NCBI RefSeq assembly: GCF_010994755.1
Contig: NZ_WHSB02000008.1
Span: 1-64,000 of the forward strand
Length of the DNA stretch: 64,000 bases
Direction of reading: 5' to 3'
Source of the DNA: Shinella lacus
GTDB lineage: Bacteria; Pseudomonadota; Alphaproteobacteria; Rhizobiales; Rhizobiaceae
The position numbers and the translations under genes were made by a program. Shown here piece after piece: positions 34,050-61,922 of this stretch (its first letter is position 1; each line of letters starts with the position of its first letter). The notes under the pieces are model-generated. The model did no database searches, was not told the origin of the DNA, and saw only the letters and a program-made list of their open reading frames with translations.

Positions 34050-34052
34050 CCC

Positions 34053-44903: not shown

Positions 44904-45122
44904 TTACGCGGCCTTCCAAATCTGATTGAGGATTTTGGCGGCCAGTGCAGCGTTGTCTTGTGGCAGGAAATGACCGTAGTGTTGCTGCACGACATCGGGC
45001 GTGCCTTGAATGGCATAGCTCGCCTGCTCGTAGAACCCGGTCTGCTTCAGAATATGCGTCGCAAGAATGTCCCGCGGGTTATGCGGGCCATGCAGCAGCA
45101 AGCCCTTGTTGCACCTCGCCCT
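44904..45122 (-). pseudogene. C-terminal remnant of a tyrosine recombinase (integrase)
   Basis: About 70 codons on the minus strand carry the end of a site-specific recombinase: HGPHNPRDILATHILKQTG (box II HxxR), then YEQASYAIQGTPDVVQQHYG with the catalytic Tyr in QHYGHF, and a closing KILNQIWKAA. The N-terminal part and box I Arg are missing; the frame joins directly to an IS5 fragment near 45123. It is a broken copy and inactive. Confidence 0.75.
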
Positions 45123-45320
45123 GCGTAGGGATTGTAGCGCTCGTGGACAAAGGGATCCATAGTTTGACTGCTGCGATGGTGCCCAAGCCAAGGTAGGATT
45201 TCTTGGTCTTGTCATAGCGGGTAGCAACGCGCCGCCAGTTCTTGAGCTTGTTGAAGAGCCGTTCGACCTGGTTGCGCCATTTGTATTTGGCTTTGAGTGA
45301 CGCATTACGTTTTACTCAGA
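45123..45320 (-). mobile_element. IS5-family transposase C-terminal remnant
   Basis: On the minus strand the sequence encodes KANYKWRNQVERLFNKLKNW then RRVATRYDKTKKSYLGLGTI and AAVKLWIP, the typical C-terminus of IS5-group transposases. Only this end remains; it abuts the recombinase remnant. Boundaries are approximate. Confidence 0.75.
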
Positions 45321-45344
45321 TGCGGTTGTATATCGGTGCCTAGA

Positions 45345-45621: not shown

Positions 45622-45636
45622 TCCTCATTTTGAGGA
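45622..45636. promoter_or_regulatory. Inverted repeat, candidate PucR operator upstream of the flavin reductase operon
   Basis: TCCTCA-TTT-TGAGGA, 6-bp perfect arms, 92 bp before the start at 45728. A related sequence, CTCTTTTTGAAGGAAGAT, follows at 45655-45672. The core TCCTC-N5-GAGGA resembles TCCTC-N6-GAGGA at 57193-57208 beside the PucR gene. Confidence 0.55.
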
Positions 45637-45727
45637 TAATAATCGCTTCTGCTGCTCTTTTTGAAGGAAGATAAGATCGTCCGCCCTCGTATCCTCCACT
45701 CCACAACCGAGCGTGGGAGGAGCGATC

Positions 45728-46708
45728 GTGAGCGAAACGGAAAGAGCACCGGCCAATCGGACCATCGACTCCGTCGAATTGCGCCGTGCATTCGGCACCT
45801 TCGCAACCGGGGTGACGATCATCACCACGTTGGATGAAAGCGGCGCGCCGAGAGGCATGACGGCGAATTCTTTCACATCCGTCTCGCTCGATCCGCCTCT
45901 CGTCCTTATCTGCGTTGGAAAGTCGGCGGCGAGCTGCGAAGTCTTCGAGAAATGCAGCGCCTTCGCGGTCAATGTCCTGCATGAACGGCAGGCTGGCGTT
46001 TCCAGCGTCTTTGCCTCGAAGTCCGCCGACAAATTCAGCAATGTCGACTATTGCGCCGTGCACACCGGAGCCCCGGTGCTGACGGACAACCTCTCCTGGT
46101 TCGACTGCACGGTCTATGACAAGCATGTCGCCGGTGATCATCTTATCCTGATTGGCCAGGTCCAGGCCTTCGGGGCCAGTCCCGCAGCGCCGCTGGCGTT
46201 CTGCCGGGGACGTTACGCGCATATCCAGAACGCGCTGCCGGATGGCTGGCTTCCCTCGCGCGGCATGATCACCGGTTACCTCATCGAAAAGGAGGGCAGC
46301 GTGCTCCTGCGTTGCGACGCCGAGGGCCGGCTTCTTCTTCCGGTGGCGAGCAAGCGCAAGCCGGGAAGCCGGCTGGAGCTGGCCGATGGGCGGGAGGTCG
46401 AAATCCTGCCGGACACGGCCTTCCTCTATTCGGTGTTCGATGTCGCCGACAGCGACCCCGGTTACCTCGTCTATCGCGCGGCTCTGGCACCGGGCTTCAG
46501 CCCTCAGGACCTGCCGCCGGAACTGCAATTCTTCCCGCTTGACGATCTCCCGGATGACCGGGTGGCGAGCCAGGAGTTGAGGGCCGTCCTGCGGCGCTAT
46601 GCCCGTGAACGCCTCGACCACCGCTTCGGCATCTATGTCGGGCATCCCGAGGGCGGTCGCATCGCGATGCTCGAGGTCGAAACCCCTTCGAATTCCTTCC
46701 AACCATGA
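45728..46708 (+). CDS. Flavin reductase-domain protein with a C-terminal extension
   Basis: 326 aa from a GTG at 45728, preceded by GGGAGGAG. The N-terminal 170 residues are a flavin reductase domain: LRRAFGTFATGVTIITTLDE, then GMTANSFTSVSLDPPLVLIC and FAVNVLHERQ. Residues 175 to 326 form a second domain (GMITGYLIEKEGSVLLRCDA) that I cannot name. Such reductases supply reduced FMN to luciferase-like monooxygenases, and one is encoded two genes downstream. It heads the operon, with a putative PucR operator upstream. Confidence 0.85.
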   Translation: MSETERAPANRTIDSVELRRAFGTFATGVTIITTLDESGAPRGMTANSFTSVSLDPPLVLICVGKSAASCEVFEKCSAFAVNVLHERQAGVSSVFASKSADKFSNVDYCAVHTGAPVLTDNLSWFDCTVYDKHVAGDHLILIGQVQAFGASPAAPLAFCRGRYAHIQNALPDGWLPSRGMITGYLIEKEGSVLLRCDAEGRLLLPVASKRKPGSRLELADGREVEILPDTAFLYSVFDVADSDPGYLVYRAALAPGFSPQDLPPELQFFPLDDLPDDRVASQELRAVLRRYARERLDHRFGIYVGHPEGGRIAMLEVETPSNSFQP

Positions 46709-46721
46709 TTGCGAGACTGCC

Positions 46722-48233
46722 ATGAAGCGAGCCGTAAGCTCTTTCGAAGGATCCCGTCAGGGACTTTATATCGGCGGAAAGTGGCTTGAGCCGAAGAGCG
46801 GCGAACACCTGCCGAGCTATGATCCGACCACCGGCCGGCAATGGTACGAGTTTGCCGATGCCGGTGCGGACGATGTCAACGCGGCCGTGCGGGCCGCCCA
46901 GGATGCCTTCGTCGATCCGAAATGGCGGCGCATGACGCAGACGGATCGCGGCAAGCTGGTTCGCCGGCTGGCGGAGCTGTTCCTGGAAAACGCCGATACG
47001 CTTGCGGAAATCGAGACCCGCGACAATGGCAAGTTGATCAAGGAGATGCGTGCGCAGATGCGCGCCCTGCCGGACTCCTACACCTATTTTTCCGGCATGG
47101 CCGACAAGCTCCAGGGCGATACCGTGCCGGTTAACAAGCTCGACATGCTGAACTTCACGATGCGCGAGCCCATCGGCGTGGTGGGTATGATCACGCCTTG
47201 GAATTCGCCGCTGATGATGCTGACGGGCACGCTGGCGCCTTGCCTTGCGATCGGCAACACCGTCGTCATCAAGCCGTCCGAACACACCTCCGCTTCGACG
47301 CTGGCTCTGATGGAGCTTATCGAGGAGGCGGGCTTTCCGCCCGGCGTCGTCAATGTCGTCACCGGCGCGGGCCGCACGGCAGGCGAGGCGCTGGTGCGCC
47401 ATCCGGGGCTTGCCAAGGTCGTCTTTACCGGCAGCACGGAAACCGGACGCAAGATCGCCGCGAATGCGGCGGCCAATCTCGTGCCCTGTCAGATGGAGCT
47501 TGGCGGCAAGTCGCCGCATGTCGTCTTCGCCGACGTGGATATCGAGCGGGCCGTCAATGGCGTCGTGGCCGGCGTCTTTGCCGCGGCGGGACAGACCTGC
47601 GTCGCCGGCTCGCGCTGTTTCGTCGAACGGTCGATCTACGACCGTTTCGTCGAAGCGCTGGTCGAGCGCACGAACCGCATCGCGATCGGGCATCCGATGA
47701 GCGAGACGTCCGACATCGGGCCGCTCGCGCTTTCGGAGCAGGTCAAGAAGGTGAAGACCTATGTCGCCTCGGGCCTTGCCGAGGGCGCACGGGTCGCGGC
47801 CGGCGGCAAGCAGCCCCGGCGCGAGGACCTCGCGGATGGCTGGTATTTCGAGCCGACCGTGCTGACTGACGCCAGCAATGACATGGGATTCATGCGCGAC
47901 GAACTGTTCGGCCCTGTCGTCGGCGTCATGCCCTTCTCCTCGGAAAGCGAGATGATCGCGCTGGCGAACGACACCCGCTACGGGCTCGCCTCCGGCATCT
48001 GGACCAAGGATATCGACCGCGCGATGCGTTTCGCCCGCGCCGTCGATGCGGGAACGGTGTGGATCAACACCTACCGGTCCGCCTCCTTCATGTCGCCGAT
48101 GGGGGGCTTCAAGGAAAGCGGCTACGGCCGACGCGGCGGTTTCGACGTCATGCGGGAGTTCTCGCGCGTGAAGAACGTGGTGCTCGATTATTCGGGCGCG
48201 ATGCAGGACCCCTTTGTCATTCGCCTGCGCTGA
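46722..48233 (+). CDS. Aldehyde dehydrogenase
   Basis: 503 aa. NAD-binding and catalytic motifs are intact: FTGSTETGRKIA, Glu259 in QMELGGKSP and Cys293 in AAGQTCVAGSR. It oxidises an aldehyde to its acid with NAD(P). It starts 13 bp after the flavin reductase stop and is followed closely by the monooxygenase gene. Its aldehyde is probably the ring-opening or oxygenation product of that enzyme, but this is inference. Confidence 0.92.
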   Translation: MKRAVSSFEGSRQGLYIGGKWLEPKSGEHLPSYDPTTGRQWYEFADAGADDVNAAVRAAQDAFVDPKWRRMTQTDRGKLVRRLAELFLENADTLAEIETRDNGKLIKEMRAQMRALPDSYTYFSGMADKLQGDTVPVNKLDMLNFTMREPIGVVGMITPWNSPLMMLTGTLAPCLAIGNTVVIKPSEHTSASTLALMELIEEAGFPPGVVNVVTGAGRTAGEALVRHPGLAKVVFTGSTETGRKIAANAAANLVPCQMELGGKSPHVVFADVDIERAVNGVVAGVFAAAGQTCVAGSRCFVERSIYDRFVEALVERTNRIAIGHPMSETSDIGPLALSEQVKKVKTYVASGLAEGARVAAGGKQPRREDLADGWYFEPTVLTDASNDMGFMRDELFGPVVGVMPFSSESEMIALANDTRYGLASGIWTKDIDRAMRFARAVDAGTVWINTYRSASFMSPMGGFKESGYGRRGGFDVMREFSRVKNVVLDYSGAMQDPFVIRLR

Positions 48234-48256
48234 GCGCGGTTTCTTCGGAGTTGAAC

Positions 48257-49330
48257 ATGAAATTCTCAGTCTCTCTCTATCTTGAGCGCAAATCGCCCGA
48301 CATGCTTATGACCGAGGTGGCGCAGAATGCGCTCGCTCTTGCCAAGCTGTCCGACCAGGGCGGTTTCGAGATGATCTGGACCGCCGAGCACCACACGATC
48401 GAACTGACGGTCGCGCCCAATCCGTTCACTTTCCTCACCTGGATCGGCCAGCATACCGAGCAGATCCGCCTTGGCACGGCGACGGTCGTCGCCCCCTACT
48501 GGAGCCCCATCCGGCTGGCCGGCGAGGCGGCGCTCTGCGACCATCTCACGGGCGGGCGTCTCGAACTTGGCATCGCGCGTGGCGCCTACCAGTACGAGTT
48601 CGACCGCATGGCCGGCGGCATCCCGCAGCAGCAGGGCGTCGCCTACATGAAGGAGCTGGTTCCTGCAGTGAGGAAGCTGTGGGAAGGCGACTATGCGCAT
48701 GCCGGCGAAATCTGGAATTTCCCGACGGCGACGTCCGTGCCCAAGCCACTCCAGCAGCCGCATCCGCGCATCTGGGTGGCTGCACGCGATCCGGGGACGT
48801 TCGATTGGGCAATTGCGCAAGGGGCCAACATCCTGTCGACCCCGCTCGCCGCGCCGAATTCCGAAATCGCGGTGCTCGGCGAGAAGTTCAGGAAGGCCTG
48901 TGCCGACCATCCGGAAATGCCGCGTCCGCGGTTCATGATGCAGCGCCGCGCCTGCCTCTACACGAAGCCGGAGGAGCGGGAGACGGCGATCCGGTGCAGC
49001 ATGGAATATGGCCGGCTCTTCGAAAACCTCTTCCAGAACCTCGGCGCGGTCACCAACGGTTTTCCCGAAGCGGTGCCTTACGAAGCCGTCGCCGGCAAGG
49101 AGAACTACGATCCGCAGAACATCGAACGGAATTTCCTCTTCGGCACGCCCGACGAGGTGATCGAGAAACTGCTCGACTACGAGGCCGCCGGCGTGGACCA
49201 GGTGAGCCTCGGCATCAACTTCAACGTTCCCTTCGAACTGCAGAAGAAGACGATAGAGCTCTTCGCCAAGGAGATCATCCCGTTCTTTGCTGCGAGGGAA
49301 AGCCGGTCCGCGTTGGAAGCCGCGCAATGA
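48257..49330 (+). CDS. LLM-class flavin-dependent monooxygenase (bacterial luciferase-like)
   Basis: 357 aa from ATG at 48257. Luciferase-like motifs are seen: MKFSVSLYLERKSPDMLMTE, FEMIWTAEHHTIELTVAPNP, RLGTATVVAPYWSPIRLAGE and LTGGRLELGIARGAYQYEF. The enzyme uses reduced flavin and oxygen to insert oxygen into its substrate and needs a separate reductase, encoded at 45728. Its substrate is unknown; related two-component enzymes open N-heterocyclic rings or oxidise amines. Confidence 0.9.
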   Translation: MKFSVSLYLERKSPDMLMTEVAQNALALAKLSDQGGFEMIWTAEHHTIELTVAPNPFTFLTWIGQHTEQIRLGTATVVAPYWSPIRLAGEAALCDHLTGGRLELGIARGAYQYEFDRMAGGIPQQQGVAYMKELVPAVRKLWEGDYAHAGEIWNFPTATSVPKPLQQPHPRIWVAARDPGTFDWAIAQGANILSTPLAAPNSEIAVLGEKFRKACADHPEMPRPRFMMQRRACLYTKPEERETAIRCSMEYGRLFENLFQNLGAVTNGFPEAVPYEAVAGKENYDPQNIERNFLFGTPDEVIEKLLDYEAAGVDQVSLGINFNVPFELQKKTIELFAKEIIPFFAARESRSALEAAQ

Positions 49331-50169
49331 GCGATCTCGAACACATCACGAACGATGTGGCGATCCGCTACAGGATCCACGGCGACGGCCCCGAGCCGCT
49401 GCTGTGCATCCACGGGGTCGGCGCGTCCGGTGAATCCTGGGATGACGTCGCCGCGCGCCTGTCGGATCGCTTCACCATCGTGACATTTGACCTGAGGGGA
49501 CACGGGCGGTCGACGAAGGTGAAGGGGCGCTATGAAATTGACGATTTCGTCGACGATGCGCTTTCGATTGCCGACCATGTCGGGTTTTCCGATTTCAACC
49601 TCGCCGGATTTTCCCTCGGAGGGCTGATCGCCCAGCGCATGGCGCTGACGCACGCCTCCCGGGTGCGCCGCCTGTTCCTGTTTTCGACGGTGGCGAACCG
49701 GACCGAGGAGGAGCGCGAGCGGGTCCTGGCGCGGTTGCACGCGCTGAGGACGACCGAGCGCGGATCGCACTACGACGCGTCCATGTCCCGCTGGTTTTCC
49801 GACGGGTTTCGCACGGCAAACCCCGAACTCATGGCGCAATTGCGTGCGCAGAACGCCAAAAATGACCCCGAAAGCTACGCCTCTGCCTATCGCGTGCTGG
49901 CGGAAACCGATTTCGGCGGCCTGCTCGACCAGATTCGCTGCCCGACGCTGATCGCCACCGGCGAGCACGACATCGGGTCCAACCCGCGCATGGCGCGTAC
50001 CATGCATGAAGCGATCGTCGGCTCGGAGCTGGCCATTCTGGAGGGCCTTCGGCATTCGATCCTCGTCGAGGCGCCGGATGTCGTCGCAAGCCTCATCGGC
50101 ACCTTCGTAAGCGGCAAGACGGTCCGCCGACGGACGTCCGATGCGTTGCGGGAGGAGCGCGCGCGATGA
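49327..50169 (+). CDS. Alpha/beta hydrolase
   Basis: 280 aa, ATGA overlap with the monooxygenase gene. The fold markers are LLCIHGVGASGESWDDVAAR (oxyanion region), the nucleophile elbow GFSLGGL, the acid in ATGEHDIGSNP and the His in GLRHSILVEAP. It probably hydrolyses an ester, lactone or amide intermediate of the pathway. The last bases overlap the NIPSNAP gene. Confidence 0.9.
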   Translation: MSDLEHITNDVAIRYRIHGDGPEPLLCIHGVGASGESWDDVAARLSDRFTIVTFDLRGHGRSTKVKGRYEIDDFVDDALSIADHVGFSDFNLAGFSLGGLIAQRMALTHASRVRRLFLFSTVANRTEEERERVLARLHALRTTERGSHYDASMSRWFSDGFRTANPELMAQLRAQNAKNDPESYASAYRVLAETDFGGLLDQIRCPTLIATGEHDIGSNPRMARTMHEAIVGSELAILEGLRHSILVEAPDVVASLIGTFVSGKTVRRRTSDALREERAR

Positions 50170-50480
50170 TCGTCGAGGAGCGCAGCTACCGGATTCGTGG
50201 CGGAATGATGGGCGCTTACCTTCGCTTGGTCGAAGAGGAGGGGTTGGCCATCCAGCAGCCGATCCTGGGCGATCTCGTCGGCTATTTCGTCACCGACATC
50301 GGCCCGCTCAATCAGGTCGTGCACCTCTGGCGATATCAGGACCTGGAAGATCGGACGCAGCGGCGCAAGCGCCTTGCCGATGATGAACGATGGCAGGCGT
50401 TCACGCCGCGGCTTTCCGCCTGTATCGCGCAGATGGACAACAGGATACTCATTCCGACCGCATTTTCGCCGATGAAATAA
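50166..50480 (+). CDS. NIPSNAP-family small protein
   Basis: 104 aa. MIVEERSYRIRGGMMGAYLR then HLWRYQDLEDRTQRRKRLAD is the ferredoxin-like NIPSNAP pattern. ATGA overlap with the hydrolase gene ties it to the catabolic operon. Such proteins may be small enzymes or binding partners; the role here is unknown. Confidence 0.88.
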   Translation: MIVEERSYRIRGGMMGAYLRLVEEEGLAIQQPILGDLVGYFVTDIGPLNQVVHLWRYQDLEDRTQRRKRLADDERWQAFTPRLSACIAQMDNRILIPTAFSPMK

Positions 50481-50554
50481 GGCGCCCGGTCGGGCGGTGA
50501 AGGCAAATGCCGGAGACGGGAACCTCCGGCGGGCATCGAACTGGGATAGGGAAC

Positions 50555-51742
50555 ATGAGCGAGCGGCTAAAGATAGACAATCTCTACAAGATATATGGCG
50601 GCTCCCCGGAGCCCGCGATTTCCCGCCTCCGCAACGGGGCGACGAAGGACAGGGTCCTGGCCGAAACCGGGCTCGTTGTGGGGCTGAACAATGTCAGCCT
50701 CTCGATCGAATCGGGCTCGATCTACATGATCATGGGCCTGTCCGGCTCGGGAAAATCCACCCTTGCGCGCTGCGTCAACCGGCTGAATGAGCCGAGCGCC
50801 GGCAAGATCCTGCTCGATGGGCGCGACCTCGTGGCGCTCGACGAACAGGCGCTGCGTGAGGTGCGGCGCACGCGGGTCTCGATGGTGTTCCAGCACTTCG
50901 CCCTGCTGCCCAACCGCACCGTCCGGGAGAACGTCGAGTTCGGCCTGAAGCTGCGCCGTATCGCGCCGGCCGTGCGCCGCCGCAAGGCGGAGGAAATCCT
51001 CGCCGTCGTGGGCCTCGCGGCCTGGGGAGAGCGGATGCCGCATGAACTGAGCGGTGGCATGCGCCAGCGTGTGGGGCTTGCCCGTGCGCTGGCCACCGAT
51101 GCCGACGTGCTTATCATGGACGAAGCCTTCAGCGCGCTCGATCCGCTGATCCGCGCGGAAATGCAGGATGAGCTGCTGCGCCTCCAGCGCACGCTCCAGA
51201 AGACCATCCTCTTCATCACGCACGATTTCCAGGAGGCGCTGAAGCTTGGCACGCGCATCGCCATCATGGCCGATGGGGAGGTCGTGCGGGAAGGCGAACC
51301 GCAGGACATCGTGCTCGATCCGCAAAGCGACTATGTCGCGGAGTTCACGCGCGACGTCGATCGGTCTCGGGTGTTCGACGTTCGCTCGGCCATGTCGGCT
51401 GCCGCGGCCGCCGACCTCATCGGCGGGCATCGCGTGGTGCTCTGCGCAAACGGCGGCTTCGCAATCGATGGAGACGGCCGCGTCAAGGGACACATCGCCC
51501 GCGCAAGGATCGACGATCTGCGCGCCGGCGCCGACATCGCGCCCCTCATGGCGTCGAGCTTCAGCGCCATCTCCGCGGACGCCAAGCTGCTCGATGTGTC
51601 CCGCGTCTTCACGGCGGGCCAGCCTGTCGCCGTCCTGGATGGGGACGATTGCATCATCGGCACGGTCTCGCCGGAAGCGGTTCTGCGCCAGCTGTCCTCC
51701 TCTCCCGCCGCGCCGAAAAGCAAGGAAAAAGTACATGTTTGA
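50555..51742 (+). CDS. Quaternary-amine ABC transporter ATP-binding protein (ProV type)
   Basis: 395 aa from ATG at 50555 with GGGATAGGG upstream. Walker A GLSGSGKST is at 61-69; the signature LSGGMRQRVGLARALA and Walker B VLIMDEAFSALDPL follow. The C-terminal about 120 residues form a CBS-like region that ends in GTVSPEAVLRQLSS. It energises import of a betaine-like solute. It is paralogous to the ATPase at 21512 but sits in a catabolic operon, so its solute may be a growth substrate rather than an osmoprotectant. It overlaps the permease gene by 8 bp. Confidence 0.92.
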   Translation: MSERLKIDNLYKIYGGSPEPAISRLRNGATKDRVLAETGLVVGLNNVSLSIESGSIYMIMGLSGSGKSTLARCVNRLNEPSAGKILLDGRDLVALDEQALREVRRTRVSMVFQHFALLPNRTVRENVEFGLKLRRIAPAVRRRKAEEILAVVGLAAWGERMPHELSGGMRQRVGLARALATDADVLIMDEAFSALDPLIRAEMQDELLRLQRTLQKTILFITHDFQEALKLGTRIAIMADGEVVREGEPQDIVLDPQSDYVAEFTRDVDRSRVFDVRSAMSAAAAADLIGGHRVVLCANGGFAIDGDGRVKGHIARARIDDLRAGADIAPLMASSFSAISADAKLLDVSRVFTAGQPVAVLDGDDCIIGTVSPEAVLRQLSSSPAAPKSKEKVHV

Positions 51743-52655
51743 CGCAAACGATCTCGCAGTCCTGCCGGTCGCCCGCTGGATCCAGGCCGGCGTGGAGTGG
51801 CTTTCCTACAATTTCCGGCCGGTCTTCATCGCCATCAAATGGCCGATCGAGAACGGGCTTGCGCTGACCGATGCGGCACTGCAATCGGTGCCGTTCCCGA
51901 TCACGGTCCTGCTTTTCTCGGCGGTTGCATGGAAGCTGGCCGGCCGGTCGACCGCGCTCTTCACGGCCGTTTCGCTGGTCGTGATCGCCGCCCTCGGCGT
52001 CTGGTCGGAGGCCATGACGACGCTCGCGCTGATCGCGACCGCCATCGTCGTGTGCGCGGTGATCGGCATCCCTGTCGGCATCTGGTCGGCGCGCAACGAC
52101 CGGGTGTGGAACGTCGTCCGGCCGATCCTCGACATCATGCAGACGACGCCCACCTTCGTCTATCTGATCCCCGTCGTCATGCTCTTCGGCGTGGGCACGG
52201 TTCCCGGCGAGGTCGCGGTGATCGTGACTGCCGTCCCCCCGCTGATCCGCTTCACCAATATCGGCATCCGCCAGGTCGACAAGGAGATCGTCGAGGCCGG
52301 GCATGCCTTCGGTGCCGACTCGCGCCAGTTGCTCTGGGAAATCCAGCTTCCGCTGGCGGTGCCAACCATTCTCGGCGGTCTGAACCAGACCGTTCTGACC
52401 GCCATGGTCATGTCCGTGGTCATTGCGATGATCGGTGCCGAAGGGCTTGGTTTGGTCGTGATGCAAGGGCTTGGCCGGCTTGACGTGGGCCATGCAGCCA
52501 TCGGCGGCATTGCGATCGTGCTGCTTGCGATGATCCTGGACCGGGTCACCCAGGGCATGGCCTCCAGGAGCGGGCGGCCGAACCGAGCGGCTGTGAAGGC
52601 CGGCTTCTGGGCCCGGCTTTTCTTCCCGCACAAGCTGGAGGAGATCAAGACCTAA
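51735..52655 (+). CDS. Quaternary-amine ABC transporter permease (ProW type)
   Basis: 306 aa. Family motifs: ATAIVVCAVIGIPVGIWSAR, RPILDIMQTTPTFVYLIPVV and the coupling loop EIVEAGHAFGADSRQLLWEI, with MSVVIAMIGAEGLGLVVMQG. About six membrane segments are expected. It starts within the ATPase gene, which implies coupled translation. Confidence 0.93.
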   Translation: MFDANDLAVLPVARWIQAGVEWLSYNFRPVFIAIKWPIENGLALTDAALQSVPFPITVLLFSAVAWKLAGRSTALFTAVSLVVIAALGVWSEAMTTLALIATAIVVCAVIGIPVGIWSARNDRVWNVVRPILDIMQTTPTFVYLIPVVMLFGVGTVPGEVAVIVTAVPPLIRFTNIGIRQVDKEIVEAGHAFGADSRQLLWEIQLPLAVPTILGGLNQTVLTAMVMSVVIAMIGAEGLGLVVMQGLGRLDVGHAAIGGIAIVLLAMILDRVTQGMASRSGRPNRAAVKAGFWARLFFPHKLEEIKT

Positions 52656-52716
52656 GGACCATCTCATCGTCACCACAACGAGAAAACCTGAAAACCGCTA
52701 AAAATGGGGAACGAAA

Positions 52717-53745
52717 ATGCATAAGCTTTACAAGATGCTGACGGCCACGGCGTGCTGCGTCGCGATCACTCATGGCGCCTTTGCGCAGAGCCTGCCGGGC
52801 GAGGGCAAGACCATACGGTTCGCCCGTGGCGACAGCCTCGGCGCGAACTATATCCAGGACGACATTCTCATCCAGGGCCTGGAGAAGCTTGGCTACGACG
52901 TCAAGCTGACGACGGTCAGCACGATCGCGTTCTTCCAGGCCGCCTCGCAGGGCGACCTCGACGTGGCCGCGGACATCAACATCCCGCAGGAGATCGCCGC
53001 CTACGAGCCTGTCAAGGACACGGTCGAACTTGTCGGCGACGGCAACATTGTCGGCGGGGGAACGAACGGCTATCTCGTCGACAAGAAGACGGCGGAGACC
53101 TACAATCTCACGAATTTCGAGCAACTCAAGGACCCGAAGATCGCAGCGCTCTTCGACGCGAATGGTGACGGCAAGGCCGATCTCGTCAACTGCGATCCGG
53201 GCTGGCAATGCGGCGACGTCGTCGACTACCAGGTGGAGAAATTCGGCCTCGCCGACACGGTGAAGACCGTCCGCGGCAAATACGAGGTCCTGCTCGCCGA
53301 GACCTTTGCGCGCTTCAAGCGCGGCGAGCCGACCCTCGTCTACACATGGCAGCCGTCGTGGGTCACGGACACGCTGAAACCCGGCACTGAAACCGTCTGG
53401 CTGCCGATCCCCTACGACGCCATGCCCGACAATATCCATGCCACGAACGGGCACCTCGTGAAGGGCGTCGTTGGTTGCGCGGGCGGGCAGGATCCGTGCC
53501 GCATGGTGACAGGCTCGTGGAACTGGATGTCCGCCGCCAATCGCGACTTCATTGCGGAAAACCCGGCGGTGCGCGCTTTCCTTGCCGAGGCGAAGTGGCC
53601 GACCTCCACCTGGGCGGAATGGGAATCGGAACTCAACAAGGACACGTCCGACCGCGCGATCAAGACGATCGCGGACGGATGGATTGCGAAGAACCAGGCG
53701 CAGTTCGACACATGGGTCGAAGCCGCGACGAAGGCCGTCGACTAG
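52717..53745 (+). CDS. Quaternary-amine ABC transporter substrate-binding protein (ProX-like)
   Basis: 342 aa. A signal peptide (MHKLYKMLTATACCVAITHG) leads to IRFARGDSLGANYIQDDILI. Two Cys pairs (NCDPGWQCGD and GCAGGQDPCRM) resemble the disulfide-linked loops of Escherichia coli ProX, unlike the binding protein at 19659. Trp residues that could cage a cationic head group are present (YTWQPSWV, GSWNWM). The ligand could be any quaternary ammonium compound. Confidence 0.9.
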   Translation: MHKLYKMLTATACCVAITHGAFAQSLPGEGKTIRFARGDSLGANYIQDDILIQGLEKLGYDVKLTTVSTIAFFQAASQGDLDVAADINIPQEIAAYEPVKDTVELVGDGNIVGGGTNGYLVDKKTAETYNLTNFEQLKDPKIAALFDANGDGKADLVNCDPGWQCGDVVDYQVEKFGLADTVKTVRGKYEVLLAETFARFKRGEPTLVYTWQPSWVTDTLKPGTETVWLPIPYDAMPDNIHATNGHLVKGVVGCAGGQDPCRMVTGSWNWMSAANRDFIAENPAVRAFLAEAKWPTSTWAEWESELNKDTSDRAIKTIADGWIAKNQAQFDTWVEAATKAVD

Positions 53746-53846
53746 AGAAATTCCAGCAAAAGTGCGAAGCGGTTTCGCGTCCGGAATTACGTAAAAACAA
53801 AGAGGTAGAGCGTTTTCGCGATTCGAAGAATAGCGGAAATGCTCTG
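53746..53846. repeat. RIME-like rhizobial intergenic repeat
   Basis: About 100 bp begins AAATTCCAGCAAAAGTGCGA and runs through GCGGTTTCGCGTCCGGAATT, AAAACAAAGAGG and TAGAGCGTTTTCGCGATTCG to GAAATGCTC. I recognise this as the common palindromic intergenic mosaic element of Rhizobiaceae. It lies just after the binding-protein stop and can fold into hairpins. Boundaries are approximate. Confidence 0.75.
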
Positions 53847-53860
53847 CGAATGTGGCAATC

Positions 53861-53891
53861 CGGGTGGAGGGCTCGTCGAGACCTCCACCCG
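53861..53891 (+). other. Strong stem-loop before the aminotransferase gene
   Basis: CGGGTGGAGG-N11-CCTCCACCCG, a perfect 10-bp stem whose loop itself contains CTCG/CGAG. It ends 23 bp before the ATG at 53915 and only about 11 bp before the ribosome site. It lacks a T-run. It may act as an attenuator or as an RNA processing site. Confidence 0.6.
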
Positions 53892-53914
53892 AAGGAGTGA
53901 AAGGGAGATCGGAA

Positions 53915-55312
53915 ATGAACATCGAGGTACGGCACGAGCTTGGCGACGAAGGCCCGAAAGACGCCGCGCGCCAGCACCTGATCAATCCGTCGGAAGAGAT
54001 GGCCAAGCTCGGCCGGTCCGACCGGCCGCTTTTCACGCATGCGGATGGCATCTATGTGTGGGACGACGCCGGGCGCAAGCTGATCGACGGGCCTGGCGGC
54101 ATGTGGTGCACCCAGATCGGTTATGCCCGCCGGGAAATCGCCGACGCCATCCGCGACCAGGCGATGACGCTCAGCTACAATTCGCCCTGGTACTTCGTGA
54201 ACGAGCCGGCGGCGGAGCTTGCGCGCCGCATCGCCGAACTGGCGCCGGGCGACCTGAACCACGTGTTCTTCACGACCGGCGGATCGTCCGCCGTCGATTC
54301 CGCGCTCCGCTTCATGCAGTTCTACAACAATGTGCTCGGGCGCGCGAACAAGAAGGCGATCATCTGCCGCATTGACGGCTACCACGGCAGCACCCAGTTG
54401 ACCGCTGCCTGTTCCGGCCGCGCCTGGAACCGGCCGAACTTCGACCTCGCCTCCGACCAGATCGCTTTCATCTCCGCGCCCAACACCTTCCGCCGGCCGC
54501 GTGGCATGTCGGAGGCGGCCTTTCTCAATTTCCTCGTGGAGGAATTCCGATCCAAGGTTGCCGAGCTCGGACCGGAAAATGTCGGCGCTTTCCTTGCCGA
54601 ACCGCTTCTGGCGTCCGGCGGCGTCATCGTGCCGCCGAAGGGCTACCACCAGCGAATCCTGGAGATCTGCCGCCAGCACGACATCCTCTATATCTCCGAC
54701 GAGGTGGTCACGGCCTTCGGACGGTGCGGCCATTGGTTCGCGTCCGAGGATGTCTTCGATATCGTTCCCGACATCATCACCTTCGCCAAGGGTGTTACGT
54801 CAGGCTACCTGCCCCTCGGCGGCCTCGTGATTTCGGATGCCGTTCTTGGCCGCATCAGCGGAGAAAATGCGAAGGGCAGCTTCTTCACCAACGGCTATAC
54901 CTATAGCGGCCATCCGGTGAGCTGCGCCGCGGCACTCGCCAATATCGATGTCATTTCCCGCGACCGCATACTCGAGCATGTGCGCGAGACAGCGCCATAC
55001 TTCCAGGAAAGAATCGGGTCGCTGCGGGACCTGCCGCTTATCGGCGATACGCGCGGAACAGGGCTGCTCGGATGCGTGGAATGTGTGACCGATCCTTCTT
55101 CCGAGCAAGCGACCAAACTCGACGCCGAAATGGCCCTTCGTGTTGACCGCGAATGCTACGAGGCCGGTCTTATCGTGCGGCCGATCTCGAACATGTGCGT
55201 GCTCTCCCCGCCGCTTATCATCACGCGTGAGGAGATCGACACGATCGTCGGCATCCTCGGGCGCAGCATCGAAAAGGTCACGAATGAGCTTCGGGCCGAG
55301 GGCCGGATCTGA
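53915..55312 (+). CDS. Class III PLP-dependent aminotransferase
   Basis: 465 aa from ATG at 53915. PLP-binding features: TGGSSAVDSALRF, GYHGSTQLTA, Asp262 in YISDEVVTAFGR and the Schiff-base Lys292 in TFAKGVTSGYLPLGG. It is of the omega-amino-acid/taurine:pyruvate type, passing an amino group from an omega-amine to a keto acid. It follows the importer genes and faces the PucR gene, suggesting that the imported compound yields a primary amine or omega-amino acid. Its exact substrate is unknown. Confidence 0.9.
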   Translation: MNIEVRHELGDEGPKDAARQHLINPSEEMAKLGRSDRPLFTHADGIYVWDDAGRKLIDGPGGMWCTQIGYARREIADAIRDQAMTLSYNSPWYFVNEPAAELARRIAELAPGDLNHVFFTTGGSSAVDSALRFMQFYNNVLGRANKKAIICRIDGYHGSTQLTAACSGRAWNRPNFDLASDQIAFISAPNTFRRPRGMSEAAFLNFLVEEFRSKVAELGPENVGAFLAEPLLASGGVIVPPKGYHQRILEICRQHDILYISDEVVTAFGRCGHWFASEDVFDIVPDIITFAKGVTSGYLPLGGLVISDAVLGRISGENAKGSFFTNGYTYSGHPVSCAAALANIDVISRDRILEHVRETAPYFQERIGSLRDLPLIGDTRGTGLLGCVECVTDPSSEQATKLDAEMALRVDRECYEAGLIVRPISNMCVLSPPLIITREEIDTIVGILGRSIEKVTNELRAEGRI

Positions 55313-55320
55313 AAAACGAC

Positions 55321-55345
55321 GCCGCCGCGCCATGGGCGCGGTGGC
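55321..55345. terminator. Bidirectional terminator between the aminotransferase and PucR genes
   Basis: GCCGCCGCGCC-ATG-GGCGCGGTGGC forms an 11-bp stem with one G-T pair. Reading minus, TTTTTC follows shortly after; reading plus, GGTTTCC follows. It sits 8 bp after one stop and 7 bp before the other. Confidence 0.75.
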
Positions 55346-55351
55346 GGTTTC

Positions 55352-57136
55352 CTATTCGTCGAGCAGCTTTGAAATCCTCAACGCCAACTCGAATTCAAAA
55401 CGCTTCTGCGAGGATTCCAGATCGAGGCCGAACAGGTCGACGATCCGCGAGAGCCGGTAACGCAGCGTGGTGACATGGATGGCCAGCTGGTCCGCGCACT
55501 GCTGGTTGCGATAACCCGCATCCACAAAGCTCGAAAGCGTCTCGTAGAATTTCGTATCGTGCTCGCGGTCATGGAGAATGATCGGGCCCAATGAAGCGTT
55601 GATATGCGTTCTGATCTGCTGCAGATCGGCGGTGACCAGAAGCATGCTCAGCGGGCCAAGCATCGAGGCGGAGACGACGCCACGTTTTGCGAGCGAGAGG
55701 GCGATGTCCATGACGCAGGACAACCGCTCGAATTGCAGCGCATAGTCGGAAAGCCGCTCGCATGGATCACTGATCGCGATCGTCGGCATGTCGCGATGGT
55801 GGCGCATCACCTCCTGCATGATCTTCGCGGTGACGGTCTTCAGGTAGGCGGGGCTCGGTGCTTCGGGCTCCGGCAGCCAGACGACGATGCCGTTCTGCCT
55901 GGCAATGACGACCGCGCGCGGTTCGAAATGTTCCGCCAGAAAGGAAAGGCCGCGCAGGATCCCGTCCCGCACCTGGCTCCGGATGGCGTCGGCATTGATA
56001 TAGGACACATAGAGAAGCCGGTGGCGCGCGCCTGTCCTGATCCCGAACTTCAAGGAGCGCTGCGCGATGTCATTTTCGCTTTTCCAGCTGCCTTCGATCA
56101 GTTCGATGAACAGCGCATCGAGGGAACGCTGTTCGAACTGGAAACGGATCTGGTTGCGCATCAATTGAACACTGAGAGCCTGCTTGGCGCTTTCGATGAG
56201 CAGAAGGTCGATTTCCGGAATTTCTTCGTCGCCGATGAAGATCAGCGCCCCGACCGCCTTTCCATCTACGGTGAGGCCGTGCATACGGGCGACCGCCGTG
56301 GCGGTCTGCGTCCCCTTCGTATAGTGGAAATCGACATTGGCGGTCGCGCCACCGGCGAGGCTTTCCGAGGCGAGGGTGAGGATCCTGTCGCCCAGTTCGC
56401 TCTCGACATAATGCCGCCATTCCTCGTCGTCGTAGAAGCGCGGGTCCGGGCTCTTGCTCGGGAGGATGGTGTTTGTCGTCCAGTCGACGACGAGAAGCGG
56501 CTGCTTGAAGATCGGATCGATCGTGGCAGCGAGATTGCGCACGGAATCGTCGGAGAGCGCCTGGTTCATCCACTGTATGTGTCGTCCTAGAACCTCCTCC
56601 TTCTGCTCCGCGGCAGTCTTCTGGGCCAGAATGTGCTTCTGTTTCTCCAGTGCTGCGGTTCCCAGCTGCACGATCAGCTTGATGAGGGACAGGTCATCCT
56701 GTTTCAGTTCCTTGATCTCGCGTGAGACGAGGGTGAGGACGATCGGGCGCCCCAGCAGATCGGTGCAGGCCATGGGTGTCACGAGGACGCTGCTGTAGTC
56801 CTTCTCGATCGATTCCCGCTGGAAGCCTGGAAACTCGGCGGATGTCTTGGCGTTGGGAATGAAGACCGGTTCGTTGTAGCGCAGGGCGACCAGGGAGGGG
56901 CTCGTTGCCAGTGCCCAGTTCGTCGCCCCGTCGTTCGGCACCAGTGCCGGGTCGTAGCGGACCGTGACATAGGCGTAACCGCTTGCCAGATCGATGCTCA
57001 TGATCGTCCCGCGATACCAGTTGAGATGGTGGCATGCCGCGCGGATCAACTGCCTGAGGATGGTGTCGGTATCCTGCTCGGCATTGATCGACGTCGCGAT
57101 ATCGCTCAACGACGCGATAAGCTGGCTTACGTCCAT
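55352..57136 (-). CDS. PucR-family transcriptional activator with GAF domain
   Basis: 594 aa from ATG at 57136, with GGAGGAG upstream. An N-terminal GAF domain (about 1-170; DTILRQLIRAACHHLNWYRG) is followed by a middle sensory region and a PucR C-terminal helix-turn-helix: NQQCADQLAIHVTTLRYRLS then RIVDLFGLDLESSQKRFEFE. PucR-type regulators activate catabolic genes for purines, amines and related nitrogen compounds. It lies between the aminotransferase and AA_synth operons. An inverted repeat at 57191-57210 and a related one at 45622 are candidate binding sites. Confidence 0.88.
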   Translation of the reverse strand: MDVSQLIASLSDIATSINAEQDTDTILRQLIRAACHHLNWYRGTIMSIDLASGYAYVTVRYDPALVPNDGATNWALATSPSLVALRYNEPVFIPNAKTSAEFPGFQRESIEKDYSSVLVTPMACTDLLGRPIVLTLVSREIKELKQDDLSLIKLIVQLGTAALEKQKHILAQKTAAEQKEEVLGRHIQWMNQALSDDSVRNLAATIDPIFKQPLLVVDWTTNTILPSKSPDPRFYDDEEWRHYVESELGDRILTLASESLAGGATANVDFHYTKGTQTATAVARMHGLTVDGKAVGALIFIGDEEIPEIDLLLIESAKQALSVQLMRNQIRFQFEQRSLDALFIELIEGSWKSENDIAQRSLKFGIRTGARHRLLYVSYINADAIRSQVRDGILRGLSFLAEHFEPRAVVIARQNGIVVWLPEPEAPSPAYLKTVTAKIMQEVMRHHRDMPTIAISDPCERLSDYALQFERLSCVMDIALSLAKRGVVSASMLGPLSMLLVTADLQQIRTHINASLGPIILHDREHDTKFYETLSSFVDAGYRNQQCADQLAIHVTTLRYRLSRIVDLFGLDLESSQKRFEFELALRISKLLDE

Positions 57137-57190
57137 GTCTCTCCTCCAGGCTCCCGAAGCTCCTATTATTCTATAGCACGTCATCGCAAG

Positions 57191-57210
57191 CTTCCTCTTT
57201 TTTGAGGAAG
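57191..57210. promoter_or_regulatory. Inverted repeat, candidate PucR operator in the divergent promoter
   Basis: CTTCCTC-TTTTTT-GAGGAAG, 7-bp perfect arms, between the PucR gene start (57136) and the AA_synth start (57271). The core TCCTC-N6-GAGGA resembles that at 45622-45636. Confidence 0.6.
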
Positions 57211-57270
57211 ATCATGCGCCCTGTTTCCCTAGTCTTTGGCCATCCGAAAGCCAGGCATGGAGGTTGTGTG

Positions 57271-57852
57271 ATGGCGCCCGCAATTCGAAAGTTCGTGACG
57301 TTTATCGAGGAGACCTTCATTGAAGGGGGACGACATTCAGACCGGCCCGTCACCGCCGTCGGCGTCGTCGCCATTCTGGAAAACCCCTGGGCGAACCAGC
57401 CCTTCGTCGACGATCTCACCCCGATCATCAATGCCTATGCGCCTATTCTCGGCGAGGAGATGACACGTCGTCTCGTTGCCCTGCTGCCGGCGGAGCGCAT
57501 CGAGGCCTATGGCAAATGCGCGGCCGTGGGGCTGAATGGCGAGGTCGAGCACGGCTCGGCGCTCATCCACACCCTGCGGTTCGGCAATATCTTCCGTCAC
57601 GCGGCGCAGGGCACCAGCTATTTGAGCTTTGCCAACACGCGCAATGCTGCCGGCGCGCTGCTCTCGCTGCCGATGACGCACAAAAGCGTTACGGGCACCC
57701 GCTCGCACTTCCTGACCCTGAACCTGCAGGTGGCGGATGCGCCTCGGGAAAACGAAATCCTCATCGCGATCGGCGCGTCCGATGGCGGCAGGCCGCATGC
57801 ACGCATCGGCGACCGCTTTCGCGACATGGAGGAGATGGGGATCAAGGCGTGA
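57271..57852 (+). CDS. AA_synth family protein (DUF1185-like)
   Basis: 193 aa from ATG at 57271, with GGAGG seven bases upstream. Characteristic stretches are AIRKFVTFIEETFIEGGRHS, VTAVGVVAILENPWANQPFV, the GKCAAVGLNGEVEHGSALIH segment and ending GASDGGRPHARIGDRFRDM. The family is often annotated amino-acid-synthesis protein without a proven reaction. It heads a two-gene operon with an aldehyde dehydrogenase, divergent from PucR. A hydrolytic or isomerising role in the pathway is possible but not shown. Confidence 0.85.
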   Translation: MAPAIRKFVTFIEETFIEGGRHSDRPVTAVGVVAILENPWANQPFVDDLTPIINAYAPILGEEMTRRLVALLPAERIEAYGKCAAVGLNGEVEHGSALIHTLRFGNIFRHAAQGTSYLSFANTRNAAGALLSLPMTHKSVTGTRSHFLTLNLQVADAPRENEILIAIGASDGGRPHARIGDRFRDMEEMGIKA

Positions 57853-57896
57853 CCTTGAACCCCGCAAACGGCAAGTGCACGGAGAGGGCGGACGGG

Positions 57897-59327
57897 ATGC
57901 TGGACAGAAGACAATTCTATATCGACGGAAAATGGTGTGCGCCTGCGCAGGAAAGGACGATGGAGGTGCTCAATCCGGCGACGGACGAGCCCTTTGCCGT
58001 CATTTCCTCCGGCTCGGAGCAGGATGTCGACCGGGCCGTCGCCGCTGCCCGGTCCGCCTTTGCGTTCTGGAGCAAGGTCGGACTGACGGAAAGGCTCGGC
58101 TATATCCGCCGGATCGTCGATATCTACCAGTCCCGTCTCGCCGAAATGGGGAAGGCCATCTCGCAGGAAATGGGCGCGCCGATCGACTTCGCGACCCACT
58201 CCCAGGCTGAAGCCGGCCTCTACCACGCAAGGGCCTTTCTGGCGGCGCTCGACGAGTATCGTTTTGAAGAGCTCTTGCGGCCGGACCTGCCCGACCAGAG
58301 GATTCTTCACGAACCCATTGGCGTCTGCGGCCTCATCACGCCGTGGAACTGGCCCATGAACCAGCTGGCGCTGAAAGTCATACCGGCAATCGCGACGGGC
58401 TGCACCGTTGTTTTGAAGCCCTCCGAAATCGCGCCGATTTCCTCCATGCTGTTTGCCGAATTCGTCGACGCAGCCGGGCTTCCCGCCGGCGTCTTCAACC
58501 TCGTCAACGGGGAGGGGGCGATCGTCGGCGAGGCGCTGAGCCGCCATCGCGACGTCGACATGATATCGTTCACGGGCTCCACCCGTGGTGGCGCGGCAGT
58601 GTCGCGCGCCGCTGCGGCAACCGTGAAGCGTGTGTCGCTGGAACTCGGAGGCAAGTCGCCGTTCATCGTCTTTGCCGACGCGGATGTGCAGACCGCCGTG
58701 GCACGCGGCGTCATGCAATGTTTCAACAATACCGGGCAATCCTGCAACGCCCCGACGAGGATGCTCGTCGACAAAACGGTGTATGACGAAGCCGTCGCGG
58801 TCGCAAAGGCGACAGCCGAGGCCGTTGCCATCGGCCAGCCGGACGAACCGGGCGATCATCTAGGCCCACTAGCCTCGCACGGCCACTATGCACGGGTCCA
58901 GGACCTGATCGACGTCGGCATAAAGGAAGGCGCGCGCGTCGTCGTCGGGGGGCTTGGCCGTCCCGATGGTTTCGAGAAGGGAAGCTTTGTCCGGCCGACG
59001 GTCTTTGCCGATGTGGACAATACCATGACGATCGCCCAGGAGGAGGTGTTCGGCCCGGTCCTCACGATCATTCCGTTTTCCGGCGAAGACGAGGCTATCG
59101 CCATAGCCAATGACACTCGCTTCGGCCTTGCCGCATTCGTCGAAACCGCGGACCTCGACCGGGCGCAGCGGGTGGCGCGACAATTGCGCGTCGGCATGGT
59201 CCAGATCAACGGCACGCCCAAGGCGGCCGGCAGCCCGTTCGGTGGCTACAAGCAATCCGGAAACGGGCGCGAAGGCGGCAGATGGGGCCTTGAGGACTAC
59301 CTTGAGGTCAAGCTCATCAGCGGTTGA
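57897..59327 (+). CDS. Aldehyde dehydrogenase (second in the regulon)
   Basis: 476 aa from ATG at 57897; a GTG at 57849 overlapping the previous stop would add 16 residues. Active-site residues are Glu249 (SLELGGKSPF) and Cys283 (NNTGQSCNAPT), with FTGSTRGG for NAD. The sequence differs clearly from the dehydrogenase at 46722, so two distinct aldehydes are probably processed. It could be a semialdehyde dehydrogenase feeding central metabolism. A hairpin lies between it and the convergent dadA. Confidence 0.92.
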   Translation: MLDRRQFYIDGKWCAPAQERTMEVLNPATDEPFAVISSGSEQDVDRAVAAARSAFAFWSKVGLTERLGYIRRIVDIYQSRLAEMGKAISQEMGAPIDFATHSQAEAGLYHARAFLAALDEYRFEELLRPDLPDQRILHEPIGVCGLITPWNWPMNQLALKVIPAIATGCTVVLKPSEIAPISSMLFAEFVDAAGLPAGVFNLVNGEGAIVGEALSRHRDVDMISFTGSTRGGAAVSRAAAATVKRVSLELGGKSPFIVFADADVQTAVARGVMQCFNNTGQSCNAPTRMLVDKTVYDEAVAVAKATAEAVAIGQPDEPGDHLGPLASHGHYARVQDLIDVGIKEGARVVVGGLGRPDGFEKGSFVRPTVFADVDNTMTIAQEEVFGPVLTIIPFSGEDEAIAIANDTRFGLAAFVETADLDRAQRVARQLRVGMVQINGTPKAAGSPFGGYKQSGNGREGGRWGLEDYLEVKLISG

Positions 59328-59389: not shown

Positions 59390-60640
59390 TCAGGCGTATC
59401 GCGCAACGGCAAGGTCAGTGGCATCAATATCCGGTTTTCTGCCAGAGACGATGTCGGCAATGACGCGGGCGGAACCCGAGCTCATCGTCCAGCCGAGCGT
59501 GCCGTGGCCGGTGTTGAGGAAGAGGCCGGCGATCTTCGTCGCGCCGATGACCGGCGTGCCGTCCGGCGTCATAGGCCGAAGGCCCGACCAGAAGGTGGCT
59601 TTGCCGGTGTCCCCGCCAGGGAACAGATCCATGACGGAATGCTCAAGTGTGCGGCGACGGGTAAGGCCGAGGTCATTAGTGTAGCCTGATATTTCTGCCA
59701 TGCCGCCGACGCGGATGCGATCGCCGAGGCGGGTGATCGCGATCTTGTAGGTCTCGTCCATCACGGTCGATTCCGGCGCACGCGCCGCGTCGGTGATCGG
59801 GATGGTCAGCGAATAGCCCTTGACCGGATAGACCGGCAGGCGAATGCCGAGGGGACGAACCAGCAGCGGCGAATAGCTGCCGAGCGCCACAACCACCGCG
59901 TCGGCCGAAAGCTTTCCCGTGCCGGTCGTGACGCCACGCACCCTTCCTGCATCAACGTCGAGGGCATTGATTGCAGTGTTCCACATAAAGCGAACGCCGA
60001 GCGCCTCTGCATTCGCCGCCAACGCATTGGCGAACTTGAAGCAATCGCCGGTCTCGTCCTTCGGCGTCAGCAGGCCGCCGACAATTTTTTCGCGCACATG
60101 CCTGAGCGCCGGCTCCACGCGGATGCAGCCCTCGGGGTCGAGCACCTCATAGGGAATGCCGTCGGCGGCGAGCGCCTTGACGTCCTTGGCGGAGGCGTCG
60201 AGCTGTGCCTCGGTGCGGAAGAGCTGCAGCGTACCCTGCATGCGCTCGTTATAGGCGATGCCGGTTTCCTCGCGCAGGGCGGCGAGCGCGATGCGGCTGT
60301 AGTCGGCCAGCCGCAACATGCGGCTCTTGTTGATGGCGTAGCGCCGCGAGGTGCAGTTGGCGAGCATCTGCGCCATCCAGGAAAGCATGGTGGCATCGAT
60401 CTTGGGCCGCAGGATGAGCGGCGCGTGCTGCATGAACAGCCACTTCATCGCCTTCATGGGAATGCCGGGAGCGGCCCAGGGCGAGCAGTAGCCGAAGGAG
60501 ACTTCGCCGGCATTGGCGAAACTCGTCTCCAGCGCCGGGGCGGGCTGGCGGTCGACAACCGTGACCTCGTGGCCGGCCCTGGCAAGTTGATAGGCCGACG
60601 TGACGCCGATAATGCCGGCGCCCAGAACGATGACTTTCAT
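59390..60640 (-). CDS. dadA: D-amino-acid dehydrogenase small subunit
   Basis: 416 aa. The FAD-binding N-terminus is [20 protein letters not shown] then [20 protein letters not shown]. Further motifs are [15 protein letters not shown], the [15 protein letters not shown] segment and [20 protein letters not shown], all usual for DadA. The enzyme oxidises D-alanine and other D-amino acids to keto acids, passing electrons to the respiratory chain. It follows alr by 24 bp; GAGG precedes the ATG. Together they catabolise alanine. Confidence 0.94.
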
Positions 60641-60664
60641 GGATCCTCACTTGGAAAGAAGGGG

Positions 60665-61798: not shown

Positions 61799-61922
61799 GT
61801 CCAGCCCCCGACTTCAGCGGAGCCTATTGAAACGATCACGAAATTTGGCACTAAATGGCGCTTGATTATTGTGCTAGATCACGATTTTTGAATGAAACGA
61901 CGAAGATTTGGAATGTTCTGCG

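Follow-up and report, generated by a model that had tools for sequence, protein, structure and literature searches.

In the trigonelline (tgn) route of Acinetobacter, the reactions are assigned to proteins named TgnA–TgnE. Parts of this route are covered by excerpts of PMC11354265, PMC8269262 and PMC7913881. According to the excerpt of PMC7913881, TgnF, a homologue of the DUF1185-family protein HcdD, stimulates TgnE-dependent oxidation of succinic semialdehyde in the trigonelline route of A. baylyi. Here we analyse a stretch of 64,000 nucleotides from Shinella lacus (contig NZ_WHSB02000008.1, positions 1 to 64,000; hereafter the window), which is part of contig C50 in a genome of 7.04 Mb and carries 12 genes at 45728–59327 that form a tight catabolic locus. 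All 12 are open frames, and Pfam and profile searches assign them to the families, at the places, given in a preliminary description made from the sequence alone. The cassette is plasmid-borne. In our judgement the chances are evenly balanced that it is an inducible catabolic regulon of tgn type, controlled by PucR, for a zwitterionic N-heterocycle (betaine) other than trigonelline, perhaps one bearing an amine. The features of the locus are as follows.

45622..45643, plus strand: operator-like site 1, a TCCTC-N5-GAGGA palindrome that continues into TTTTGAGGATAATAAT and lies 85-106 bases ahead of the fre start
45728..46708, plus strand: flavin reductase (fre), Pfam PF01613 Flavin_Reduct 4e-40, with ~155 extra C-terminal residues
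46722..48233, plus strand: aldehyde dehydrogenase 1 (aldh1), PF00171
48257..49330, plus strand: luciferase-like FMN monooxygenase (LLM), the oxygenase component, PF00296 Bac_luciferase 4.6e-56
49327..50169, plus strand: alpha/beta hydrolase (abh), PcaD-like, TIGR02427 PcaD 3e-49
50166..50480, plus strand: NIPSNAP protein, PF07978 1.4e-31
50555..51742, plus strand: ProV-type importer ATPase, TIGR01186 proV 348.1 bits, above the cut-off of 326.6
51735..52655, plus strand: ProW-type permease, PF00528; PRK10952 329.6 bits, below the cut-off of 439
52717..53745, plus strand: ProX-type binding protein with an altered pocket, PRK11119 353.2 bits, above the cut-off of 215; 1r9l 1.4e-54
53915..55312, plus strand: class III aminotransferase (Aminotran_3, PRK07036 family), NF005447 714.5 bits, above the cut-off of 618; 3i5t 1.7e-193
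55352..57136, minus strand: PucR-type regulator, presumed activator, PF13556 and PF17853 above cut-off; start set from the ribosome-binding site
57193..57215, plus strand: operator-like site 2, between pucR and AA_synth, TCCTC-N6-GAGGA running into TTTTGAGGAAGATCAT
57271..57852, plus strand: AA_synth (DUF1185; same family as TgnF), PF06684 3.4e-61; 2qtp 5.4e-34; 3byq 5.2e-20
57897..59327, plus strand: aldehyde dehydrogenase 2 (aldh2), PF00171 5.1e-158

From fre to proX, neighbouring genes either share 4 or 8 bases or are separated by 13–74 bases. The gap between proX and the aminotransferase gene is 169 bases, so that the latter is only a candidate member of the fre–proX transcript. The pucR gene runs opposite to all others, and AA_synth and then aldh2 lie beyond it. 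Inspection of ribosome-binding sites gives fre a GTG start with GGGAGGAG, and re-sets the starts of pucR (57136, not 57184), AA_synth (ATG 57271) and aldh2 (ATG 57897).

Loci with a homologous LLM were gathered from plasmid records, GTDB contigs (the best 80 listed) and further genomes; the 130 loci were reduced at 97% LLM identity to 104 representatives, a sample ranked by similarity rather than random. A total of 57 representatives have an LLM with 60% or more identity to that of the window and are termed close relatives here, with genes counted within ~10 kb. PucR is present in 56 of them, AA_synth in 55 (all except L079 and L144) and flavin reductase, ALDH1 and the hydrolase in 54 each; where at least 6 kb of both flanks is available (n = 50), the counts are 50, 49, 48, 49 and 49, respectively. 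The grouping of the core genes is beyond chance, and the earlier view of a single catabolic locus is supported. The window holds PucR, fre, aldh1, llm, abh and AA_synth together, the full make-up of an unnamed PucR-type LLM cassette, a description of which was not recognised in the open-access literature, subscription journals falling largely outside that search. 

The preliminary description had placed AA_synth outside the trigonelline route. This has to be corrected, since TgnF, a homologue of the DUF1185 family, acts in that route (excerpt of PMC7913881) and the gene is found not only in nearly all close relatives but also in 23 of 26 tgn-type loci. The host genome has exactly three AA_synth genes, one per LLM cassette. 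Furthermore, among 394 genomes of the host family, all 70 that have an LLM match (E ≤ 1e-70) also have AA_synth, as do 139 of the 324 that have none, counts that reflect co-presence, not adjacency, and ignore kinship. Cassette conservation, genome co-presence and homology to TgnF led us to reject the idea that AA_synth is an unrelated gene. It must have further roles, since it is also found without LLM; several host-family genomes carry tandem pairs.

The tgn-type class is defined by an LLM identity of 55% or more to a second host copy, C9, and has 26 representatives; its clade is anchored on C9 and on A. baumannii locus L016, which is taken as a true tgn cluster by its gene content, not by ADP1 sequences. 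Besides AA_synth, members of the class have GntR (22), reductase (21), ALDH (23), hydrolase (21), NIPSNAP (17) and succinic semialdehyde dehydrogenase (SSADH, 8), and two of the three that lack AA_synth lie on short contigs. L016 also holds cytosine-permease-like, porin-like, SSADH and CMD-like genes, named by reading translations, with the SSADH kinship supported by profile. Consistent with the likeness to the trigonelline route proposed earlier, the window unites a two-component LLM and flavin reductase with an ALDH, a hydrolase and a DUF1185 partner, and these five enzymes are 29–50% identical to those of L016 (reductase 34%, LLM 39%, ALDH 45%, hydrolase 29%, AA_synth 50%). GntR-controlled tgn-type cassettes in general have the same enzyme set, including AA_synth, at 34–54% identity (hydrolase 25–34%). 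The Sinorhizobium meliloti pSymA cluster (L017) belongs to the class as well, and its reductase is probably SMa0793, whose structure is 3rh7. The window fre matches 3rh7 over residues 11–312 (3.6e-47), and its C-terminal part matched no Pfam family; in the predicted model (pLDDT 79.3, pTM 0.52), 3rh7 is the only full-length match among the 50 listed, with a TM of 0.39. A search of the open-access literature on homarine and rhizobial trigonelline found nothing helpful, nor did locus-tag searches of papers. In Acidiphilium multivorum (L020, 10921–13417), a tgn-type LLM gene is apparently split by an IS110 element.

The host carries three cassettes: that of the window; C1, which has an amino-acid-type (PAAT) importer, an LLM 73% identical to the window LLM and 92.6% identity over 10.2 kb to a Shinella plasmid (L014); and the tgn-type C9 (locus L105), with an LLM 42% identical to that of the window. 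The C9 LLM is 71% identical to the Acinetobacter LLM and 82% to that of S. meliloti pSymA, and its cassette includes GntR, SSADH and its own ABC importer. In the LLM tree the window LLM lies outside the tgn-type clade. Moreover, at 18 positions that are conserved (≥93%) within each clade yet differ between them, it has the residue of its close relatives in 18 of 18. The enzyme set with AA_synth is what would be expected of a second trigonelline pathway; such a pathway is nevertheless highly unlikely in view of the C9 cassette with its GntR, SSADH and importer, the ~40% LLM identity to the tgn class with 18 conserved differences, and the failure to find SSADH at the window locus, a gene within reach in just 8 of the 26 tgn-type loci. 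Since the host already has C9, the window copy is probably not for trigonelline, in line with the earlier suggestion of a different substrate; trigonelline as the likeliest substrate was rejected on the separate LLM clade, the 18 positions and the separate tgn-type cassette.

ProV and ProX of the importer score above the cut-offs of their curated models, and ProW falls below that of the equivalog PRK10952. The importer is of a betaine-binding type, in support of the preliminary description, in which the quaternary amine is a candidate substrate. The glycine-betaine Trp box of E. coli ProX comes from the published structure. Relative to that structure (1r9l), the window ProX keeps two tryptophans (W163 and W211), with N88 at the position of W65 and E92 at that of H69. 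The complete Trp box for glycine betaine was not found in the window ProX; with two tryptophans kept and the third gone, a betaine would fit, but not glycine betaine itself. Across 43 ProX proteins aligned with 1r9l, W140 and W188 are kept in all 43 and W65 is replaced by Asn in 42, the window included, whereas the position of H69 is occupied by Arg in 39 and by Glu in a single protein, that of the window. The usual ProX pocket among PucR-type cassettes reads NFPQREP and that of the window NIPQEIA. A ProX search of 61 genomes at E ≤ 1e-70 returned one relative beyond the host's own copy (61%, G794).

Among the 57 close relatives, 30 have a ProU and 24 a PAAT importer, none has both, and in three neither type lies within reach. 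In the LLM tree the PAAT forms branch from within the ProU forms, although SH-aLRT values are only ~86–91 for those branches; this pattern suggests a change of importer with the enzymes retained. NIPSNAP accompanies ProU in 27 of 30 cases and PAAT in 0 of 24 (Fisher 4e-12, kinship ignored). A CMD-type gene (CMD or CMDac) occurs in 31 of the 57 (ProU 13/30, PAAT 18/24); none was found at the window locus, and the host C1 cassette has one. Of 37 PAAT binding proteins, 35 keep the Arg motif and 33 carry Ser in place of an Asp known from a solved amino-acid-binding protein, the remaining four lying outside the search pattern. In the solved protein, this Asp holds the alpha-amino group. The pocket changes in ProX and PAAT are both consistent with a zwitterionic ligand that has no free alpha-amino group.

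Two similar sites lie in the promoter regions. The motif TTTTGAGGAWRATMAT, with TCCTC ahead of it, forms a palindrome at 45628, upstream of fre, and at 57200, between pucR and AA_synth; a looser second copy of site 1 lies at ~45655–45672. As the pattern was derived from these two sites (45622–45643 and 57193–57215), its exact matches there arise by construction and only its rarity elsewhere is informative: the rest of the 7.04 Mb genome contains no exact match and one site at one mismatch. In a separate comparison of the fre and AA_synth promoters, the best score, 12, falls at the looser copy (~45655) and is reached in 0 of 300 shuffles. The shared motif may be taken as moderate support for one regulon. 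The GAF_2 domain (PF13185) of PucR scores 23.8 bits, under the cut-off of 28.6.

The window is the sole carrier among the 57 of a PRK07036-type aminotransferase and an aldh2 (at least 60% identity). Three plasmid records have an aminotransferase above 70%, those of Shinella zoogloeoides Teo12 (L121), Shinella sp. PSBB067 (L122) and Rhizobium sp. ACO-34A (L123), and in each an aldh2 relative follows ~3–5 kb on; identities to the window are 74–77% for the aminotransferase and 64–67% for aldh2. The intervening genes encode an OYE-family protein (annotated as N-methylproline demethylase in Teo12) and a pyrroline-2-carboxylate-reductase-like protein, and no LLM cassette gene was matched in these three stretches. 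In the next-best record (aminotransferase 60%), the neighbouring aldehyde dehydrogenase is of a different kind, and relatives at 53–54% (L125, L126) adjoin genes of a Rieske-type oxygenase and the aminomethyltransferase family. On the SSADH model TIGR01780, aldh2 scores 366.1 bits, short of the cut-off of 646.35.

The window copy is also the most divergent of its kind: within sets of hand-chosen loci it ranks first for LLM (of 32), hydrolase (of 32), ProX (of 22) and PucR (of 31), with mean identities of 71.4, 64.9, 53.8 and 36.7% against 79.4, 72.9, 67.2 and 55.2% for the others. No LLM above 75% identity to that of the window was found in the other 393 host-family genomes. This divergence bears on the possibility, rather unlikely as we see it, that the cassette and its 56 close relatives share one substrate, with the aminotransferase and aldh2 as passengers and the differences as drift. 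Core enzymes that are 52–80% identical to those of relatives, the 18 class-separating LLM positions all kept, importers exchanged while the enzymes stayed alike, and copies in Labrys and Microvirga (L074, L075) that are nearly as divergent for several genes would all accord with it, as would aldh2 relatives that exist without the aminotransferase. Yet relatives of these two genes stand together in three other loci, in the window they flank pucR and AA_synth, with AA_synth–aldh2 preceded by a motif like that of fre, and it is ProX and PucR that deviate most from the average.

ALDH1 falls under the cut-off of every NCBIfam family among the best 25 of its 45 matches, with 45% identity to the L016 ALDH and 73–80% to those of close relatives. 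The best PDB match of the LLM is RslO1 (7bip), and the solved folds nearest to its predicted model (pLDDT 90.9) are RslO1 and bacterial luciferases, neighbours that do not discriminate between ring opening and Baeyer–Villiger chemistry. Kinship with alkanesulfonate or fatty-aldehyde enzymes, which the preliminary description had set against its own proposal, was not seen: the LLM scores far under the cut-offs of NtaA/DmoA (31.9 of 279.7 bits), SfnG (59.8 of 382.95) and luciferase alpha (79.2 of 600), and the alkanesulfonate (SsuD) model is absent from the best 25 of its 29 matching families. Membership of NtaA/DmoA and SfnG was rejected on these scores, as was the pyrimidine Rut pathway (RutF 84.8 of 254.75 bits, RutD 69 of 238.5). 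The hydrolase reaches 167.7 bits on TIGR02427 PcaD, below the cut-off of 255.85, and matches 2xua at 3.7e-30 and, weakly, 3kxp at 6.7e-11.

The sequence itself establishes the gene content, the conservation of the unit, the three cassettes, the pocket changes, the co-location of aminotransferase and aldh2 elsewhere and the similar sites; the reactions, with the ring opening, the regulation and the substrate class given next are inferred. ProX, ProW and ProV would bring the compound in, the flavin reductase would supply FMNH2 to the LLM, and the LLM would oxygenate the ring, which would open to a semialdehyde (or hydroxylactone). ALDH1 would oxidise this semialdehyde, and the PcaD-like hydrolase would cleave an amide or lactone to release an amine together with a small acid or semialdehyde, with AA_synth, as a member of the TgnF family, aiding a late step. 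The aminotransferase and aldh2 may convert an amine on, or released from, the substrate to an aldehyde and then an acid, and PucR would turn on both transcription units via the shared site. A further-reaching version, which we consider doubtful, holds that the PucR-type cassettes represent a ring-opening pathway, widespread yet undescribed, of bacteria from soil or associated with plants, with swappable importers, and that the window is an offshoot for an aminoalkyl N-heterocyclic betaine, the Arg-to-Glu change in ProX holding the extra positive charge and the transaminase and aldh2 removing the amine.

Several observations weigh against an N-heterocyclic betaine as substrate or against a single regulon. 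In a copy that changes fast, the Glu of ProX may reflect drift. The promoter-comparison score of 12 is equalled by 2 of 158 other real windows, and the motif was not found in the 16 other cassettes examined. L129 and L130 have aldh2 relatives (60–64%) but no such aminotransferase, and the one in L131 has only a 4-aminobutyrate transaminase ~5 kb further on. L089, a tgn-type LLM locus with full flanks, has neither AA_synth nor a cassette. AA_synth by itself is no proof of an N-heterocycle: the excerpt of PMC2954203 links the DUF1185/AA_synth family with branched-chain amino acid genes, and the DUF1185 protein HcdD belongs to a coumarin pathway, the authors of PMC7913881 reporting that they failed to demonstrate a stimulating effect for it. 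The window LLM is ~40% identical to tgn-type LLMs, and the tree sets the tgn-type clade off by a long branch and brings the window clade nearer to LLMs that mostly lack a cassette; among the 21 other LLM representatives at 44–58% identity, 14 are without AA_synth and 14 without a reductase. Finally, the hydrolase matches PcaD best, not the amide hydrolase 3kxp.

The last of these points, together with the place of the 44–58% LLM relatives, the coumarin DUF1185 gene and the CMD proteins in 31 of 57 relatives, would suit a type II Baeyer–Villiger or aldehyde-oxidising two-component LLM that acts on a non-nitrogen ring or a ketone, with a PcaD-like hydrolase of lactones or esters as the next enzyme. 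In the same vein, the excerpt of PMC12239570 describes an LLM proven to be a Baeyer–Villiger enzyme, on progesterone, which does not imply likeness to the window LLM. Such a route is nonetheless quite improbable here, considering the betaine-type importer with two cage tryptophans kept and the AA_synth, extended reductase and NIPSNAP common to tgn-type cassettes; the PcaD match does not discriminate, because tgn-type hydrolases likewise score best with PcaD-type models.

Among related cassettes, that of Azospirillum oryzae (L009, 26–6412) lies near genes annotated as 2,5-dihydroxypyridine dioxygenase, FAD monooxygenase, hydrolase, Asp/Glu racemase and amidohydrolase, a nicotinate-type set. A gene annotated as D-2-hydroxyacid dehydrogenase or glyoxylate reductase adjoins AA_synth in Agrobacterium fabrum C58 (L127, 13783–14709) and Rhizobium leguminosarum CB782 (L128, 18017–18943), and a product-processing step is possible for it. 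SSADH, AT3b and Lrp genes stand beside 12, 8 and 23 of the 57 cassettes; in R. phaseoli, the AT, SSADH and Lrp neighbours may belong to a nearby ectoine cluster rather than hint at the product.

Just upstream of the window cassette (44904–45329), two reading frames are broken by stops, which we presume to be a transposase remnant and an integrase-like frame; a Pfam search of 44904–45305 gave no match. Directly past aldh2 (59390–62396), minus-strand genes of the DAO family (dadA-like) and for alanine racemase lie beside an Lrp regulator, and what we take to be a plasmid RepA-like sequence follows downstream, near 63000. Elsewhere in the window, genes at 22884–36332 encode an M42 peptidase, an asparagine-synthase/glutamine-amidotransferase, a GNAT and ATP-grasp protein and an MscS-type channel, presumably resembling a NAGGN osmolyte cluster. 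At 10912–15716, a Y-family polymerase gene, presumably ImuB-like, precedes one for DNA polymerase III alpha, presumably DnaE2-like, and another Y-family polymerase is encoded at 6858–8084 on the minus strand.

If the proposed reading is true, the 57 orphan cassettes represent a single pathway, a small set of growth tests could identify its substrate, and the poorly understood AA_synth/DUF1185 family would be tied to ring-opening catabolism. The cassettes lie on plasmids and contigs, and their carriers include rhizobia, Azospirillum, Agrobacterium, Pandoraea, Bosea and Caballeronia; three sister cassettes in one genome would provide a natural system for the study of substrate change in a monooxygenase pathway. 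Compared with E. coli ProU, the window shares agreement with the ProV and ProX models and two of the three box tryptophans, and differs by Asn at W65 and Glu at H69. With the tgn clusters (L016, L017 and C9) it has in common the reductase with C-terminal extension, the LLM, the ALDH, the alpha/beta hydrolase and AA_synth, whereas cassettes of that type mostly have GntR in place of PucR, and the window has the ProU-type importer, the aminotransferase and aldh2. The PucR-type cassettes of Azospirillum oryzae (L009), A. fabrum C58 pAt (L127), R. phaseoli (L011) and the host's own C1 (L104) show the same fre–aldh1–llm–abh order with PucR and AA_synth and LLMs 66–76% identical to that of the window; the window-type aminotransferase and aldh2 are absent from the other 56 close relatives.

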